64,000 bases of DNA, taken from contig CANOEC010000003.1 of assembly GCA_947564735.1 (NCBI GenBank), forward strand, positions 143,432 to 207,431, in the 5' to 3' direction. Shown here in pieces: positions 16,553 to 28,252 of the stretch (positions are counted from its first letter, which is position 1; each line of letters starts with the position of its first letter). A model generated the notes under the pieces. The model was not told where the DNA came from and ran no database searches. It saw only the letters and a program-made list of their open reading frames with translations. A program made the position numbers and the translations under genes. This DNA is from an uncultured Lachnospiraceae bacterium. Its GTDB lineage: Bacteria; Bacillota; Clostridia; Lachnospirales; Lachnospiraceae.

Positions 16553-17557
16553 TTATCGCCGCCCTTTCAGTCCTTCAAGTTCTCTGCGGAGCATTGCAAT
16601 TTCTTCATCTCTTTCTTGTATAAGCTTGGCACTCTGCGCTATTTCTTCTTCACGCTCCTGTATAAGCTTGGCACTCTGCGCTATCTCTTCTTCACGCTCC
16701 TGTATGAGCTTGGCACTCTGCGCTATCTCATTTTCTCTCTGTGCCAAAATATTTATCTGTTCTGCAATTTTACCATCTTTCTCCACGATAACCCTTTGAT
16801 AATTTGCAATGTCCCTATCCCGCTGCGAAACCGCTCTCTCATAATTACGCAAATCCTGATAATATTCCTCACGGTCGCGGCACATCTTGCGTACCTGTTC
16901 GTCAGTATTAAATTTAAATATTGTTTCCGCTGCCTCATTCATACATTCGTCTTTCGATGCCAGCATTCTCATTTCCTCCCAAGTTATTGCCTTAAAAAGT
17001 AATGCCCACTCATGTATATGATACCTTTTATCTTCTTCCGTTGCCAAATCTATACGAGATAAGTCTATCACATTCAGTGTGATGCTGTCACTATATTTTT
17101 GATGATTTTTTACGTTTATCAGTTTATAAGAAGCATAAAATTCAGGATATTCATCAAATAATGTATAATTCAGAAAACCAATATGTATCACCGGTCTTGC
17201 CTCTGTATAATCCTGTCCGTGCTCCAATTGGTCAAAGGAACGGCACAGATACATGACTGAGCGTTCTTTCCAGTTCAATTTATTGGTAATCTGCATTTCA
17301 AGATTAATCAATGTACTATCATTTAGAAGCACATTGATATCCAGACGCATTTCCTTGTCTTCAACCGCCTTTCCCAAAATGACAGGGTTGACAATTTCGA
17401 CAGAGATTACTTCCGTCTCTGACAGATGCAGCAGGGAGCATATCAGTCCACGAAGCACTTTGTTATTTGACTGCAAAACTGCCCGGAACATATAATCATT
17501 CGTCATACCATAGGGGATTGCGCCATGCGCGCGTTGAAATTGTTGATTCAGATTCAT
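16553..17557 (-). CDS. PD-(D/E)XK nuclease family transposase / Rpn-like protein with C-terminal coiled repeats
   Basis: Residues 1-220 match the PDDEXK_2 group, which includes Rpn recombination-promoting nucleases. There is TNDYMFRAVLQSN near the N-terminus and the catalytic pattern RLDINVLLNDSTLINLEMQI, in which Asp and the E-x-Q are the metal-binding set. Residues 225-334 are a charged coiled coil. They contain three 14-residue repeats of the form EEIAQSAKLIQERE, encoded by a 42-bp tandem DNA repeat. In known Rpn proteins the nuclease cuts DNA and variable C-terminal repeats modulate it. The gene is monocistronic except for the coupled small gene. Confidence 0.82.
   Translation of the reverse strand: MNLNQQFQRAHGAIPYGMTNDYMFRAVLQSNNKVLRGLICSLLHLSETEVISVEIVNPVILGKAVEDKEMRLDINVLLNDSTLINLEMQITNKLNWKERSVMYLCRSFDQLEHGQDYTEARPVIHIGFLNYTLFDEYPEFYASYKLINVKNHQKYSDSITLNVIDLSRIDLATEEDKRYHIHEWALLFKAITWEEMRMLASKDECMNEAAETIFKFNTDEQVRKMCRDREEYYQDLRNYERAVSQRDRDIANYQRVIVEKDGKIAEQINILAQRENEIAQSAKLIQEREEEIAQSAKLIQEREEEIAQSAKLIQERDEEIAMLRRELEGLKGRR
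16622..16747. repeat. 42-bp tandem repeat within the PDDEXK gene
   Basis: Three units share the core AGCTTGGCACTCTGCGCTAT at 16623, 16665 and 16707 and keep the reading frame. The first two are nearly identical and the third diverges at its end. Copy-number change would lengthen or shorten the coiled coil by 14 residues. Confidence 0.9.
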
Positions 17558-19075: not shown

Positions 19076-19741
19076 CTAAAGCAGCACCGGTATCATGCTG
19101 TACGCAGCATCCCTGCTCTCCTCACAGCAGACTGCCACCCGGTAACCGGCAATATCCGGATATTCTTTCAGATGGTAATACTTCGCGTTAAACGTATGCT
19201 TTACGCGTATCTTATCCTTATTCATTATGACCGCAAAATCACCTAACGGCAGGGAGATACCTTTTCCGGTTGCCTTTAAAAAGCTTTCCTTCATCGTCCA
19301 GATGCGGAACATCCTCTGCGTGATTTCTTCCTCATCCTGTATTTCATACATCCATTCCAGCTCCTCTTTTGCAAAAAAACGGTCGGCTACCTTGAGTCTT
19401 CCCGGTTTAATCCGTTCAATATCATTTCCCATAGGCTTGTCACCGATACTGCATATCGCATAATCCCCCGAATGGGACAGTGAAAAATGAATGCTCTGCT
19501 GATATTTCAAAGACGGCTTACCCCATTCCCCAAATTCATATTCAATGCTTTTTTCCCTGAGCCCGTAGGTTTCCAGCGCATGATCCAAGGCGACCCCCGC
19601 GCCAAGGCTTCTGTTCTTGTCCTTTTCATGCTTCAGAATCGCTATCTTCTGCTGCCTGTACGGCGACAATAGATTTAGCTTCTCCTGAAAAAGTTCCTCA
19701 TTTTCAAATTGTGTCACATCAATATAGTAAGTATATATCAT
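19076..19741 (-). CDS. 4-prime-phosphopantetheinyl transferase, Sfp type
   Basis: This enzyme loads phosphopantetheine from CoA onto carrier proteins of fatty-acid, polyketide or peptide synthases. The family signature is complete: HFSLSHSGDYAIC, MGNDIERIKPGR with the metal-binding Asp/Glu, and IWTMKESFLKATGKG with the conserved W-x-x-K-E-A-x-x-K pattern. The length of about 221 residues matches Sfp. Two ATG codons are possible; the one used lies 13 bases after GGAGG and the other abuts it. No synthase genes are in the window, so the target is unknown. Confidence 0.92.
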   Translation of the reverse strand: MIYTYYIDVTQFENEELFQEKLNLLSPYRQQKIAILKHEKDKNRSLGAGVALDHALETYGLREKSIEYEFGEWGKPSLKYQQSIHFSLSHSGDYAICSIGDKPMGNDIERIKPGRLKVADRFFAKEELEWMYEIQDEEEITQRMFRIWTMKESFLKATGKGISLPLGDFAVIMNKDKIRVKHTFNAKYYHLKEYPDIAGYRVAVCCEESRDAAYSMIPVLL

Positions 19742-19857
19742 CTTTATAACCATGCCTCCTTCTCGGACTGCAATTCTTTCAACCTTTCCTTCCATTCCGA
19801 AGAGTTTTTACGCTGAAGGCGTGCACGGAATTTAAGTTTCCGTCAGAAAACCTTATT

Positions 19858-22014
19858 CTATCTCCACCTGCGGTCGTGCGGATACCTGTGCATGGAACGC
19901 CGCACTCTGTCGTCCTCCTCGCCTACCGCATGATAACATTCCTGACAAATCGGATAAGCATAATCCCATGGAAGAACCGCTCCGCAGCCACGGCATTTTT
20001 TTTCAAACTGTCCCTTATCCTCCTTGAGCAGTTCACCAATCTCATGCTGCGCCCACTCTCTGTTGACCGCCACCTCTTCCTTATCCACTTCCCAATTCAT
20101 CCTGCCGGAAAACTGCGTATATAAATCCAGCTGCTTATAATAGGACTCCAGCCCTTCCAATGAAAAATCCTGCGGCAGCATCGGACAATTATGAAACTGC
20201 GTCGGTTTCTCACAATACTTAAGCCACAGCCGCAGCACCTCCCTGTCTTTGACGTCAAAGGGACATGTAATCAGCGACAGCACAAATTTCCGGTCTTCCA
20301 TATATGTCAGCTTCTTACGGTAATTCTTAAGATAGCGGTATTTCTTCACGCTCTCCGCCATGGAAATCTTGTCGTACATGGGTAGATTCTTCGTCCGCTC
20401 CCACGCTTCAATGATTTCATCCATTTCCATATCAATATCCAATAGTACCTCCGGAAACCCAATCCTTGCTCTTTTTAACGAATAAAGCGGCTCTTCCAGC
20501 TTCTTACCGATATACTCGATATCCATCGCCGACTGCACATATCCCACATCATAATAACCGTATCTGCCCGCACGTCCCGCAATCTGCCTGATTTCCTCCG
20601 CTTCCAGCCTGCGCTTGTCCGTACCGTCAAACTTCATGCTGTTCATGAACACGATGCGCCTGATGGGCAGATTAATACCCATCCCGATAGCATCCGTCGC
20701 CACCACCACCTGATTGATTCCTTCCGTAAAAAGCCGTACCTGCTCCTGTCTCGTCTGGGGCGGCAGATTCCCATAAATAACACTTGCTTTGATTCCTCTG
20801 CCCTCAAGCGATGCCGCAATTGCCAGCACGTTTTTTTTGGAAAAAGCAATCAGCGCGTCGCCCGGTTCCACGTCCTTGCCCATATCGAAGCGCTTGGGGA
20901 TAAACTCCAGCTTCGTATTGCGCTCATGGCGTACAATCTCGTATGTGTCACTGCATCTTCTAATCATTCTGACCAAAAGATTCTCCGCCGTGCCGGAGCA
21001 GCACACATGAATCTCCTCGGCGCGAATGCCGAGAAGCGCCCGTGTCCAGAAACTTCCTCTGTTCTCGTCCGCCATCATCTGCGCCTCATCGATCACCGCG
21101 ATATCGTACACTTCTCTGATATCCAGTATCTCCACCGTGGACGCCTGCACGAAGCTTCCCGGCGTGCGAATCGCTTCTTCTCCCGTAATCATGCTGCACG
21201 GAATGCCCGCCGCCATCATCCTGTCATAGACTTCCAGCGCCAGAAGACGAAGGGGTCCTAAATAGATTCCATGATAAGCCTGTCTCAGCCTCTGCAGCGC
21301 CTGATAGGTCTTGCCGCTGTTGGTCGGTCCGATATGCAGGATAAAATGGCGTTTCATACCCCGCGCCTCCGGATACTGTTTCTCCGGCTCCGCTTCCATC
21401 AGTTCCTCAATCCGCTGTCCCACGAGATACTGCATATACTCCTCTTTGTAGATTTCATAAAGCGATTTCGTGCGCAGAAGCTCTGCGGTCTTCTTCATCT
21501 GCACCACGTCTTCCGGATTGACTCCATTAGTCATTTTATTTAAAAAGGAAATATCCAGCCTTACCAGCATACGCAATGTATGTTTGTATTTTTTGAGCAG
21601 CCTTTTCTCCTTACGGGTCGCCACCGTATATCCGATTGCAACGGCGCGTTTATGCAGTTCTTTCATATCCGCCAGTATCTGGTGGCTTTCCTGTCCCTTC
21701 TTACGCGCGATACGTCTTTCCAACTGACCGATTTGTTTCTCGACGCCCTTGAGCAATCTGCGCTGTTCATTCACTTCAAACCTAAGAAATGCATTGATGT
21801 AAGTCAGCCAGACCGTCTCAGGTATATCGTTCTTGATGCGGTTTTCTTCCACATCATACTCCTCTGCTCCATCTTCTTTCACATCTGTCTCTTCTGCTCC
21901 GGTTTCTAATGTCCTGCAGTCTTCCGCTCTGGTTTCTTCTGCTTTGGTTTTTTCCGCTCTGGTCTCTAATATTTCATCCGCCATATTATGTTCTCTCTTC
22001 TTATTTTCCGGCAT
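19858..22014 (-). CDS. Suv3-like superfamily 2 RNA helicase with C-terminal zinc ribbon
   Basis: The roughly 718-residue helicase has an acidic low-complexity N-terminus of about 50 residues (repeats such as ETRAE and KAEETRAE), then a helical region. Two RecA folds follow: Walker A HIGPTNSGKT, motif II IDEAQMM, motif III CCSGTAENL, and motif VI QIAGRAGRYG. The order and spacing resemble Suv3/mitochondrial degradosome helicases. The C-terminus has CRGCG and CQEC, a likely zinc ribbon. The gene follows the GTPase-nuclease fusion by 57 bases and is probably cotranscribed. Suv3 relatives unwind RNA for 3-to-5 decay; that role here is inferred. An ATG six codons upstream is also possible. Confidence 0.85.
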   Translation of the reverse strand: MPENKKREHNMADEILETRAEKTKAEETRAEDCRTLETGAEETDVKEDGAEEYDVEENRIKNDIPETVWLTYINAFLRFEVNEQRRLLKGVEKQIGQLERRIARKKGQESHQILADMKELHKRAVAIGYTVATRKEKRLLKKYKHTLRMLVRLDISFLNKMTNGVNPEDVVQMKKTAELLRTKSLYEIYKEEYMQYLVGQRIEELMEAEPEKQYPEARGMKRHFILHIGPTNSGKTYQALQRLRQAYHGIYLGPLRLLALEVYDRMMAAGIPCSMITGEEAIRTPGSFVQASTVEILDIREVYDIAVIDEAQMMADENRGSFWTRALLGIRAEEIHVCCSGTAENLLVRMIRRCSDTYEIVRHERNTKLEFIPKRFDMGKDVEPGDALIAFSKKNVLAIAASLEGRGIKASVIYGNLPPQTRQEQVRLFTEGINQVVVATDAIGMGINLPIRRIVFMNSMKFDGTDKRRLEAEEIRQIAGRAGRYGYYDVGYVQSAMDIEYIGKKLEEPLYSLKRARIGFPEVLLDIDMEMDEIIEAWERTKNLPMYDKISMAESVKKYRYLKNYRKKLTYMEDRKFVLSLITCPFDVKDREVLRLWLKYCEKPTQFHNCPMLPQDFSLEGLESYYKQLDLYTQFSGRMNWEVDKEEVAVNREWAQHEIGELLKEDKGQFEKKCRGCGAVLPWDYAYPICQECYHAVGEEDDRVRRSMHRYPHDRRWR

Positions 22015-22070
22015 GTTTTTACCCTGTCTCATTATCCTATCCTGTTTATCTTTTGCCCTGCTGGGCGGTT

Positions 22071-24938
22071 TTACTCGTCCGTTCCCTGTCTCATACGCTC
22101 CACATATGCCGTCACATCATCGTCCGCGTCTTCCAGCAGATACTTTTTACCATCCGAAGGTTTTCCGGGACGATCGAGAAACACCTGTCTCAGTTCCTTT
22201 GCAACAGCCATGATTTCATCCTGCAATTCCCTTGCCGACACGCGTACCGCGCCTGCACCCATGATGATAAGCTGTTCCAGCCCATCGGATGTCGCCACCC
22301 TCACACGGTGCTTCCTGCCAATCTCATGCGTCACTTTCTCGATATACTGGTCCGCCGTCTCAGCTTCCTTCGTGTACACAACGTCAATGTTATGATATCG
22401 GACCGTGCTTCCGGGATTCCCCTTCACTTTATAAGCGTCAAAGACTAAGATAAGTCTCATCTTGCGGTATCCCTGAAAATTACTCAGAATATCCATCAGT
22501 CTGCCCCGCGCACTGTCAAGATTCGTCTGCGCCAGTTCATTTAAGGAATCCCACGCAAATATAATATTATACCCGTCCACCAGTAAATACTCTTCGTCTG
22601 TGCGGCTGTCATGGCTCTGTCCTGCCGTATTCCCTGCACGTGCCGCCCCACCCGCCGCTTTTCCTTCCGAATCGGGTTTCGATTGCCGCATAGGGCTCTC
22701 GCCTGCTCTTCTGGCGCGTATCGTCCTTGCCCAGCCCTGCTTCTTTCTTTCTTTTGTGCCGTATGTGCGGTTCATGATTTCATCAATCTCATCCTGTCCG
22801 ATAACATCTGATATGCCGCCCGATTGCTTCCTGCCGCCAATTCTCGCATGCCCGTTTCTGATTTCCCCGCTTGTATTCTGTCCCTGTCCGGTGCTCCCTT
22901 CCGATGGCAGTCCTGAGCCTTCTTCGCCAGCATCTGTCCGCGTATATTGACCGTCCTTTGTCACATACGCAAGATGCATATATTCTTCCACCTGATCCCA
23001 TTCCACCACGAATCCTGCTCCATGGGCACAAAACACGGAACTGCACGGATTATCCATATCTCGCTCCGCCTCGTAGCCTGTCGCCGCAATCACCGCCTCG
23101 GCATTATGACACGGCTCATATCCTTTTAATTCTGTATACAGTCTGCCCTTTCCGCCCGAATAAGCCAACACCTGCGCCTGATATCCCGCCATCTCGGACG
23201 CCGGAACCGTACCCGTAAGCACAGCATACTCTCCCTCCGTCCAAGGCGCGTCAAACTGTCCGCACTTCGCCTGCATATCGGTCATTCCGCGTCCAATCAT
23301 CGCCGCCGGCAGTTCCAGTCTGAACGCATATACCGGCTCTAACAGTATATTCTGTGTCCGGCATAAACCCTGTCTGACGGCACGGTAAGTCGCCTGCCTG
23401 AAATCTCCGCCCTCCGTATGCTTCAAATGCGCACGCCCTGTCACAAGCGTAATCTGTATATCTGTGAGCGGTGAACCGGTCAAAACGCCCACATGCTCTT
23501 TTTCCTCCAAATGCGTCATAACAAGGCGCTGCCAGTTCCGGTCAAGCACATCCTCGCTGCAGTCTGTACGAAACTGCAGTCCGCTGCCCGGCTCCCCCGG
23601 TTCCAAGAGCAAATGCACTTCCGCATAGTGTCTGAGGGGTTCGTAGTGTCCGACACCTTCCACTGCAGCCGTTATCGTCTCCTTATAGACAATGCTGCCC
23701 GTATCAAAAGTTACTTCCACGCCAAACCGGTCGGCAATCAGATTGCGCAGAATCTCAATCTGCACTTCGCCCATCAGCTGCACCTGAATCTCGCCAACCT
23801 GCGCCTTCCACACGATATGAAGCTGCGGCTCTTCCTCCTCAAGTTGACATAACATATTATACATCCGATGCACATCGCATCCTTCCGGCAGTACAATACG
23901 ATACGTCATCACAGGCTCAAGCACCGGAACCGTATTGCCTTCCTCCATCCCCAGCCCTTCCCCGCTGAACGTAGATGCCGGACCCGTCAGGGCACAGACG
24001 CACCCTGCCGTTACTTCCTGCTCCACGCTATATTTATCGCCCGAATAAACCCGAATCTGATCCACTTTCTCTTCCGTCACGTTATCCGCCGCGCCCATGT
24101 CCGCAGCATACTTTCCACCGCGTCCATGTGTGGAGATTGTCTGTTTTACCTTAAGCGCACCGCCCGTAATCTTCACATGCGTCAGCCGGTTTCCCTGCGC
24201 ATCTCTGGAAATCTTATATACTCTCGCCCCGAATGACTCTTCATATAAAGGCATTCTCATATACATGGCTAACCCGTCCAATAATTCCGTAACCCCTTCC
24301 ACCTTGAGCGCCGAACCAAAAAAGCACGGAAATACCTTGCGTTCTTTGACTAATTTTGTAATTTCTTCATCTTCAATGGTATCCACACCATCCGTCGCAA
24401 GATACTGCGTAAGAATTTCTTCATCACATACCGCAATATCCTCAAAAAACGCCGCGTCCCGGCTGCCAAACGCAACACACCGCTCATCCAGCTTTTCCTT
24501 CATCTCGCCCATAAGCCACTCTGCATCGGTATCCGGCTGATCCATCTTGTTGACAAAAAGAAATACCGGCACATGATATCTTGCAAGCAGCCGCCAGAGC
24601 GTAGAGACATGTCCCTGTATACCGTCCGCGCCGCTGATCACCAGCACCGCGTAGTCAAGTATCTGCAAAGTCCTCTCCATTTCCGCCGAAAAATCCACGT
24701 GCCCCGGCGTGTCCATCAGGGTAATTTCCATATCTTTCCAGCGTAGTACAGCCTGCTTGGAAAAAATCGTAATTCCCCGGTCCCGCTCCTGCCTGTCCGT
24801 GTCCAGAAAGGCGTCCTTGTGGTCTACCCGTCCCATTTTGCGTATACTGCCGCTTGTATATAATATGCTCTCCGCCAAAGTGGTCTTTCCGGCGTCCACA
24901 TGCGCCAGAATCCCAACTACCAGTTTCTTGCTGCTCAT
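22071..24938 (-). CDS. TetM/EF-G-like ribosomal GTPase fused to a Rae1/YacP-like NYN endoribonuclease domain
   Basis: Residues 1-650 are a translational GTPase of the ribosomal-protection type: G1 AHVDAGKTT (12-20), G2 RDRGITI, G3 DTPGH (76-80), G4 NKMD (130-133). EF-G-like domains II-V end in YTELKGYEPC, as in TetM. The domain IV loop that carries YSPVS in TetM reads GRAHLKHTEGGDFR here, so tetracycline release is doubtful. After a Gly/Ser-rich linker (about 670-780), residues 784-920 match YacP/Rae1: LLVDGYNIIFAW, LVFDAYKVKG, ETADQYIEK, VATSDGLEQ, with the acidic catalytic set kept. Rae1 cuts mRNA in the ribosomal A site. The protein is unusually long at 955 residues. A Suv3-like helicase gene follows. 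Confidence 0.88.
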   Translation of the reverse strand: MSSKKLVVGILAHVDAGKTTLAESILYTSGSIRKMGRVDHKDAFLDTDRQERDRGITIFSKQAVLRWKDMEITLMDTPGHVDFSAEMERTLQILDYAVLVISGADGIQGHVSTLWRLLARYHVPVFLFVNKMDQPDTDAEWLMGEMKEKLDERCVAFGSRDAAFFEDIAVCDEEILTQYLATDGVDTIEDEEITKLVKERKVFPCFFGSALKVEGVTELLDGLAMYMRMPLYEESFGARVYKISRDAQGNRLTHVKITGGALKVKQTISTHGRGGKYAADMGAADNVTEEKVDQIRVYSGDKYSVEQEVTAGCVCALTGPASTFSGEGLGMEEGNTVPVLEPVMTYRIVLPEGCDVHRMYNMLCQLEEEEPQLHIVWKAQVGEIQVQLMGEVQIEILRNLIADRFGVEVTFDTGSIVYKETITAAVEGVGHYEPLRHYAEVHLLLEPGEPGSGLQFRTDCSEDVLDRNWQRLVMTHLEEKEHVGVLTGSPLTDIQITLVTGRAHLKHTEGGDFRQATYRAVRQGLCRTQNILLEPVYAFRLELPAAMIGRGMTDMQAKCGQFDAPWTEGEYAVLTGTVPASEMAGYQAQVLAYSGGKGRLYTELKGYEPCHNAEAVIAATGYEAERDMDNPCSSVFCAHGAGFVVEWDQVEEYMHLAYVTKDGQYTRTDAGEEGSGLPSEGSTGQGQNTSGEIRNGHARIGGRKQSGGISDVIGQDEIDEIMNRTYGTKERKKQGWARTIRARRAGESPMRQSKPDSEGKAAGGAARAGNTAGQSHDSRTDEEYLLVDGYNIIFAWDSLNELAQTNLDSARGRLMDILSNFQGYRKMRLILVFDAYKVKGNPGSTVRYHNIDVVYTKEAETADQYIEKVTHEIGRKHRVRVATSDGLEQLIIMGAGAVRVSARELQDEIMAVAKELRQVFLDRPGKPSDGKKYLLEDADDDVTAYVERMRQGTDE

Positions 24939-26934: not shown

Positions 26935-27705
26935 CTACAGACTCCCTAAATTGCTCTCCTGTTTTTCATAAACCTCATTCCACTCTTCTTCTGTCAACCG
27001 ATCCGTATGCCATTCCATGCCATAATCGTCCTTAGAAGGAAGCATTTTGTTTGACAAATACTGACATCCGCCGTCCTGCATGGGACGTACCACCACCTCA
27101 TGGGTATACGCCTTGGAGGTTCCCTCACCGGGATATACCGCATTGACGCTGAGCGTGACCGTTCCGTCATCGTTTTCGGCATAACCGACCACTTCCGGAT
27201 AGGGAATATTGGTGTATTCTGCTTCATAGAATCCCCTCGAACGGTACTCGTACACTTTCTTTTCGGGTAAATACCTTGTGTGGGAACGTATTCTCTCCCT
27301 GTCCACAGGAAGATATTCCATAAGCACGCCTTCAAATTCCTCCTGCGGAATCTGATATACCGTTCCGACACTGATATTTTCATCCGGCAAATAGGGAACC
27401 GTCCGTCCGTTTCTCATAGCATAGAAGCAGTCAAACGCGTCATAGAAATCCAGTTCGCCGAAATCTTCCACGTTCCAGTCACACAGAAACATATTATTCC
27501 TCCCATAACCTACGGGAAGCATGTAAAGCCGGTTTAGTTCCCTGCACTTACTATCTAACGGCTCCACCCGCATGGCTGTCACTTCCGGCACATCGCTCAT
27601 CGTAAGCACATAGGACTGCGCAGAATAGGAACTGCCGGTAAAAATCAGATATCCTTCCGCCGTATACTGCCATGTATCGGCATGATAGCTTACCGCCCCG
27701 CTTTT
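26935..27705 (-). pseudogene. 3-prime part of a frameshifted lipoprotein gene
   Basis: This frame continues directly from the end of the upstream lipoprotein frame: AVSYHADTWQYTAEGYLIFT follows in the -1 frame right after the first part's stop codon. A single missing G in the GGGG run at about 27702 would restore one gene of about 420 codons. The sequence is soluble and acidic, with strands such as YEYRSRGFYEAEY and NDDGTVTLSVNAVYPG. No start codon with a ribosome-binding site lies near the 5-prime end. It may belong to the DUF6070 family of Lachnospiraceae lipoproteins, a tentative recall. Confidence 0.7.
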
Positions 27706-28211
27706 TCAAAACATTCGTTATTATATTGGTAGTATTCTTTGATAACTTCCACTTGTCCGCTTTCCGTGTATAAATAATACCCATATAATTTCTCCGGCGT
27801 TTCAAGTACCAGAATCGTCACCTCGGCTCCTTTTGACTGCTCCACCGCGTTGCAAAACGATAATACCCGTTCTCTCTGTGTCATGTCAATCTGATTCTTA
27901 CTGTCTATCGCCGGGTAACCCTGTTCTCCGAGTCTTTGAATGATGATCTGCATCATTTCCGTATACTGCATTTCTTCCACTGTATGAGAAGCCGTCTCTT
28001 CGGCATAAATATCTTGACAGAGTTTCAGGACATCATCCGTATCCACGGTGTTCTCCCTATCTACAATACTATCCGTATCTATAGTATCCTCCGCCACACG
28101 CAAGGAATCTTGACTCTGTTCGGTTTCTTTACCCGCATCCGTCTGCACGCCGCATCCTGCCGCCCATAGTATACATATAGACAGCGCTATGGATAACATA
28201 TGCTTTTTCAT
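27690..28211 (-). CDS. Lipoprotein of unknown function, 5-prime part of a frameshifted gene
   Basis: It has a lipoprotein signal peptide: MKKHMLSIALSICILWAAGC with the lipobox Cys near residue 20. A Ser/Asp-rich linker follows, then a soluble domain ending EVIKEYYQYNNECFEKAGR. GGGAGG lies six bases before the ATG, and an upstream TTG is less likely. The stop codon appears to arise from a one-base loss in a G run, because the downstream frame continues the protein (see the pseudogene entry). The function is unknown. Confidence 0.75.
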   Translation of the reverse strand: MKKHMLSIALSICILWAAGCGVQTDAGKETEQSQDSLRVAEDTIDTDSIVDRENTVDTDDVLKLCQDIYAEETASHTVEEMQYTEMMQIIIQRLGEQGYPAIDSKNQIDMTQRERVLSFCNAVEQSKGAEVTILVLETPEKLYGYYLYTESGQVEVIKEYYQYNNECFEKAGR

Positions 28212-28252
28212 AATCAACCTCCCTGCCTGCCAACTGTTGTCACGGATATCAT

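Follow-up and report, generated by a model that had tools for sequence, protein, structure and literature searches.

Two questions are raised by a locus in an uncultured Lachnospiraceae bacterium. What does a protein do that carries a translational GTPase and a YacP/Rae1-type nuclease in one reading frame, and does the Suv3-like helicase gene beside it belong to the same machinery? We studied the locus within a window of 64,000 nucleotides (the whole stretch of DNA analysed) and followed its genes through related genomes. To our knowledge, it is an open question by what means free Rae1 locates paused ribosomes. A large bacterial clade with the nuclease wired to a ribosomal GTPase, and with the free gene lost, points to factor-assisted entry into the A site, and that idea can now be tested with one protein.

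Rae1 is a ribosomal A-site endoribonuclease according to excerpts of PMC6613710 and PMC12320835. An excerpt of Atkinson 2015 (PMC4342817) describes Tet proteins from ten Clostridiales species that gained a YacP-like NYN RNase domain and suggests that these Tet-NYN proteins may be a novel resistance mechanism; their function was untested there. The fusion in the window has the same architecture and is a member of that group. The same excerpt gives no free-Rae1 distribution, tip analysis or neighbours, whereas here the fusion was found family-wide and replaces free rae1. The architecture is thus already in print, and what is new is its distribution, the replacement of free rae1, the GTPase tree, the tip analysis and the outcome for the helicase. 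No functional test of the fusion came up in the literature that we searched, which did not extend to the primary Rae1 papers. A 2018 paper by Condon is said to deal with the distribution of Rae1 and may already mention the fusion.

Two Enzymes in One Reading Frame

The first-pass annotation had described one 955-residue frame that joins an EF-G/TetM-type GTPase to a YacP/Rae1-type NYN domain. Pfam confirms this, with GTP_EFTU (residues 7–227), EFG_III, EFG_IV (415–527), EFG_C (532–613) and NYN_YacP (785–950) all matched in a single frame (Table 1). The fusion is real and beyond chance, and it recurs in most of the sampled genomes of the family. One ORF of at least 500 aa matching the fusion was obtained from 79 of the 80 named-genome loci (L264 has none of that length); together with the window's protein, these make up the set of 80 in which residue conservation was counted. 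By Pfam, the locus is flanked on one side by genes for a phosphopantetheinyl transferase (PPTase) and SpoVAD and on the opposite side by genes for CobS and a GH26 enzyme. A PADLOC search for defence systems gave no match for the fusion and only weak general helicase matches for its neighbour, and counts from a promoter and terminator scan were near the shuffled means.

Table 1. Features of the fusion locus, in window coordinates.
Feature	Position	Strand	Basis
GTPase-NYN fusion gene, 955 aa	22071..24938	(-)	ORF, Pfam, 28 full-length relatives aligned, AlphaFold2 model
GTPase domains G to V and C-terminal extension, residues 1–655	22974..24938	(-)	
Domain IV tip, residues 501–514, G-x-x-H-x-K-H-T-E-G-G-D-F-R	23397..23438	(-)	
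C-terminal extension with Cys610, Cys637 and His655, residues 600–655	22974..23141	(-)	
Flexible linker, residues 656–781	22596..22973	(-)	Model, spacing
Short conserved linker helix, residues 715–726	22761..22796	(-)	Model, pLDDT ~50
YacP/Rae1-type NYN nuclease, residues 785–950	22089..22586	(-)	Pfam, YacP structures
Suv3-like RNA helicase, 724 aa; neighbour	19858..22032	(-), same strand as fusion	ORF, Pfam
Sfp-type phosphopantetheinyl transferase (PPTase)	19076..19795	(-)	Pfam ACPS

The nuclease domain matched NYN_YacP with 167.5 bits (E = 3.4e-49) against a cut-off of 24.6, and it was also matched by the B. subtilis YacP structures 5mq9 (E = 3.6e-27) and 5mq8 (E = 4.6e-27). Asp788, Asp834, Asp863 and Asp885 align with 5mq9, and all four are present in 80 of 80 fusions, in line with the earlier remark that the acidic residues of the NYN domain are kept. 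The domain therefore shares its family and four acidic residues with the Rae1/YacP of B. subtilis. However, Rae1 is a free protein of ~170 aa encoded in a cysS–rlmB row, whereas the nuclease here forms the C-terminal part of a GTPase encoded at a different locus. Its core is more acidic when fused, with a mean net charge of −5.4 (n = 28) versus −1.1 for free domains (n = 13; p = 1e-4, for related sequences that are not independent). Arginine 899 was considered as a further difference between free and fused domains and dropped, since the residue is Arg in 61 of the larger set of 80.

The GTPase Half and Its Domain IV Tip

The GTPase half has the EF-G/Tet fold, with domains G, III, IV and V present and the G1, G3 and G4 motifs intact. 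It scored 398.5 bits with the NCBIfam model tet_protect and 285.7 bits with the NCBIfam EF-G model, below the respective cut-offs of 775 and 659.4; in all 28 relatives scored, tet_protect was the top NCBIfam model. The nearest solved chains by profile were TetO (401.7 bits), TetM (389.9) and EF-G (384.7). On these scores, "TetM-like" is better taken to mean "EF-G/Tet fold". Of the ten GTP_EFTU matches in the window's genome, the fusion is the sole one on the Tet side as judged by length and similarity.

Compared with Tet(M), Tet(O), Tet(W) and Tet(S), the fusion has the same G-to-V domain order and likewise carries D-F-R after the tip. It differs from the Tet proteins in a tip with His, Lys, His, Thr, Gly and Gly and in an extension bearing Cys610 and Cys637. 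Identity is 26–27% to Tet(M/W/S), and 26–28% when an Otr(A)-like protein is included; the fusion also lacks Pro-509 and falls in a separate clade. From EF-G it is set apart by a score under the cut-off of the EF-G model and by only 24% identity to the EF-G of its own genome.

Conservation of the tip among the 80 fusions was 77 for H504, 79 for K506, 79 for H507, 80 for T508 and 79 for R514. His573 of Thermus thermophilus EF-G aligns to H504, so the tip histidine of EF-G is kept, and PDB entry 1fnm ("EF-G H573A") is a structure altered at the matching residue. Pro-509 of Tet(M), which sits in the tetracycline site according to an excerpt of the review PMC8161019, aligns without gaps to K506, a position held by Lys in 79 of 80 fusions and by Glu in 1. 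The earlier observation that the TetM tetracycline loop is not conserved was thus correct, with Lys506 at the Pro-509 position in the window. The model scores and the absent Pro-509 argue against counting these fusions as resistance genes. NCBI annotates a Monoglobus member as "translation factor GTPase family protein". Judging by sequence, proteins of many gut Clostridia that are labelled as tetracycline resistance or "translation factor GTPase" are probably housekeeping factors.

Displacement of Free rae1

Among 150 genomes of the family, NYN_YacP was found in 135. The frame was long (at least 516 aa) in 123 and shorter in 12; the 123 were taken as fused by a reading of frame lengths, and some short frames lie at contig ends. 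Fused and free domains were again told apart by frame length in a sample of 196 genomes of the class, each at least 90% complete, where 133 had NYN_YacP: 74 fused, 59 free and 0 with both. Three frames of 313–376 aa were scored as fused, two of them less than 1 kb from a contig start (G305 and G321) and one seemingly interrupted (G193). A second match under the cut-off occurred in two of the class genomes. At the level of the phylum, 136 of 249 genomes gave a match, 11 of them from other classes with frames of 877–909 aa.

The free NYN gene adjoins a SpoU methylase gene (rlmB) in 10 of 13 loci, as part of a row that reads cysS, RNase III domain, SpoU, NYN, sigma factor and was checked with Pfam at one locus. 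We inspected the same site in 28 genomes with the fusion, including the window's. All 28 have rlmB, and none has an NYN gene within 1.5 kb of it; within that distance are an RNase III-domain gene in 19, cysS in 14 and a sigma factor gene in 11. Since rlmB is present throughout with no NYN beside it, we conclude that free rae1 has been replaced by the fusion. Across 41 loci no gene neighbourhood of the fusion proved conserved, the row around free rae1 being the exception.

Origin of the Join

A profile running from domain IV to the C-terminal extension separated the GTPase subfamily (at least 200 bits) from EF-G-like proteins (at most 130 bits) across the class, with some partial matches at contig ends falling below 200 bits. 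The subfamily was present in 84 of the 196 class genomes: 73 of the 74 with a fused nuclease (the gene of the remaining one is broken by a contig end), 6 of the 59 with a free NYN and 5 of the 63 with no NYN. In the latter two groups the GTPases are unfused proteins. Since some occur with no NYN, and only 6 of the 59 genomes with a free NYN have one, neither enzyme depends on the presence of the other. The GTPases without an NYN show that this enzyme serves a purpose by itself, so that the fusion would add cleavage to an existing ribosome-sensing factor. None of the 15 family genomes that lack an NYN has this GTPase. The eight family genomes with a free NYN comprise four with an intact unfused GTPase, one with a broken one and three with none of the subfamily, one of these three being 67% complete.

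The unfused GTPases that we collected (L072–L083 and L133–L136) are 640–724 aa long and have the same tip; some of their genomes have no NYN. At another locus (L132, genome G042), the GTPase is in an ORF of 711 aa that overlaps a shorter ORF with the NYN, the break being in the linker region; an error, a split gene or a frameshift could each account for it.

In an IQ-TREE analysis of 48 rows, 30 fused proteins formed one clade (support 99/91) and 12 unfused proteins another (90/78), while Tet(M/W/S) and the Otr(A)-like protein formed a separate clade (100/99). FastTree, run on 55 rows, gave the fused clade (32 rows) a support of 98. A tree of the NYN domain only did not unite the fused proteins, which were one clade in 0% of 200 bootstrap trees; one clade had a p-AU of 0.409. 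The NYN tree neither shows nor rejects a single origin, so the claim rests on the GTPase trees. By those trees, the fused proteins are of single origin, sister to the unfused relatives and apart from Tet(M/W/S).

C-Terminal Extension, Linker and Predicted Structure

An AlphaFold2 model built from 28 rows had a mean pLDDT of 76.7 and a pTM of 0.58. The extension and the NYN domain were both folded in it, and linker segments 663–714 and 725–780 were predicted to be disordered (pLDDT < 50). In a fold comparison that mainly spans fusion residues 1–623, residues 3–649 of the model aligned with TetM 1–639, with the extension matching the end of TetM. Cys610 is conserved in 80, Cys637 in 79 and His655 in 79 of the 80 fused proteins, and each of the three is present in 16 of 16 unfused relatives. 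A zinc site made of Cys610, Cys637, His639 and His655 was considered but found no support, because residue 639 is Lys in 12 of the 16 unfused proteins, and 9 of 32 fused ones carry Asn, Gln or Gly there. The comparison of fused and unfused proteins gave no clear fourth metal ligand beside the other three residues.

The spacing between H655 and D788 varies from 67 to 151 residues, with a median of 85, in the set of 80. The short helix within the linker is conserved at E717 (76 of 80), I721 (77) and T725 (67), and it is perhaps a docking motif.

The Suv3-Like Helicase

The neighbouring gene product matched DEXQc_Suv3 with 208.5 bits (E = 5e-62; cut-off 27) and contains Helicase_C. Its match to SUV3_C was weak, at 20.3 bits against a cut-off of 27. 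Its C terminus bears a CxxC...CxxC motif, whose conservation among 21 relatives is 85% or more. The first-pass annotation had placed this gene on the same strand as the fusion after 57 bases. The strand was right, and the distance is instead 38 nt if the gene starts at its first ATG (22032) or 56 nt if it starts at the second (22014).

The same annotation had proposed a ribosome-bound mRNA surveillance machine of three parts, with GTPase, nuclease and helicase working together. In favour of this, the genes are adjacent and co-directional in the window, at two loci of its genus (L163 and L173) and at L189. However, they are not neighbours in most relatives, an outcome that the annotation itself had named as refuting its proposal. 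The helicase, recognised by its Suv3 domain, occurs in 22 of the 150 family genomes (21 over the cut-off) as against 135 for the NYN domain, and it is found in 58 of 61 genomes of the genus. The fusion is present at 3 of 21 helicase loci, a set of which two members end early at contig ends. The two genes touch only in the window and are 10 kb and 5 kb apart at the other two loci with the fusion. We also took 30 of the 58 helicase matches of the genus, with a reach of ~1.5 kb and several loci ending at contig ends, and found an NYN in 2 and the PPTase in 27. Seen from the fusion, 1 of the best 80 named loci, some of them truncated by contig ends, has a helicase no more than 6 kb away. The adjacency of fusion and helicase is confined to a few close relatives and looks recent. 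We rejected the helicase as a member of the unit on this synteny, on its rarity in the family and on its seldom lying near the fusion. It is probably not part of the fusion unit, and the three-part machine is very improbable; the ribosome-bound mRNA cutter, the other half of the proposal, survives as the best reading of the fusion itself.

The helicase and PPTase genes form a stable pair (19076–22032 in the window; L159–L188). The PPTase is a stable neighbour of the helicase and not of the fusion.

Proposed Function and Alternatives

The protein holds two enzymes in one frame with their signature residues kept, and free rae1 is absent alongside it. From two intact enzymes of the A side on a long tether, together with loss of the free nuclease, we infer factor-assisted cleavage of mRNA in the A site. 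We see about an even chance that the fusion is a GTPase-targeted Rae1 that acts on the mRNA of paused ribosomes. This reading is based on the retention of the four Asp residues, the GTPase motifs and the EF-G-like tip histidine, and also on the mutual exclusion of free and fused genes, the empty rlmB site, the one GTPase clade and the joint absence of GTPase and nuclease from 15 of 15 genomes. Counted against it are the unfused GTPases in genomes without an NYN, the scatter of the fused domains in the NYN-only tree, and the fact that domain IV and Rae1 cannot share one A site simultaneously. No conserved neighbour links the fusion to mRNA decay or rescue, which also counts against it.

Ribosome binding, A-site entry, a hand-over from tip to nuclease and mRNA as the substrate are all predicted from sequence. 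On a ribosome with an empty or blocked A site, the GTPase half would occupy the factor site, and the tip of its domain IV would enter the decoding centre. GTP hydrolysis would then release or withdraw domain IV. The nuclease, on its disordered tether of 67–151 residues, would enter the vacated A site and cut the message, a step modelled on free Rae1 in B. subtilis. This would leave the ribosome, with its truncated message, ready for rescue and would shut off that mRNA. Since the A site is the expected place of both domain IV and the nuclease, the two would have to act in turn or on neighbouring ribosomes. In its full form, the proposal is of a GTP-driven cutter: a GTPase with a tip of its own would inspect the empty or blocked A site, hydrolyse GTP and hand over to a tethered Rae1. 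Such a protein would have a single origin, would have supplanted free Rae1 in much of Clostridia and would couple factor binding directly to mRNA cleavage in one polypeptide. We hold this version tentatively, at a little under even odds.

A role in ribosome protection would have the GTPase remove an A-site inhibitor (not, or not only, the classical tetracyclines), with the nuclease clearing ribosomes that cannot be freed; the excerpt of PMC4342817 offers a similar idea of nuclease-aided resistance. Such a role is favoured by the top rank of tet_protect among the NCBIfam models in each of the 28 relatives, by TetO and TetM as the nearest chains by profile and by the DFR end of the tip shared with Tet. 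We nevertheless regard it as unlikely, given the 398.5 bits against a cut-off of 775, the 26–28% identity to Tet(M/W/S) and the Otr(A)-like protein, the replacement of Pro-509 by Lys and the chromosomal presence of the fusion family-wide.

Alternatively, the two halves could have unrelated jobs, the fusion securing only co-expression or residence on the ribosome with no hand-over between them. The long disordered linker and the unfused GTPases in genomes without an NYN are consistent with this, but a join of single origin that has been widely retained, with a short conserved helix in the linker, makes it a poor prospect as well. The nuclease might instead cut rRNA or tRNA, either for maturation or to control damage, while the GTPase anchors it to the ribosome. 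A role of NYN domains in rRNA and tRNA maturation has been proposed (Anantharaman and Aravind 2006, as cited in the excerpt of PMC4342817), and the free gene sits among rlmB, an RNase III-domain gene and cysS. However, the nearest studied relative is described, in the excerpts on Rae1, as a ribosomal A-site mRNA endonuclease, and we consider cleavage of rRNA or tRNA distinctly improbable.

Other Observations

Two records filed as "Bacteriophage sp." from human faeces, MT835563.1 and MT835514.1, contain almost all of the fusion, with identities of 53% and 47%, respectively. They are perhaps bacterial DNA filed as phage. Elsewhere in the window, a DUF6070 protein is spread across two successive ORFs (26935–28217) and is probably a broken gene. 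A PDDEXK_2 transposase-family protein encoded at 16553–17557 has a repeated, coiled-coil-like C-terminus.
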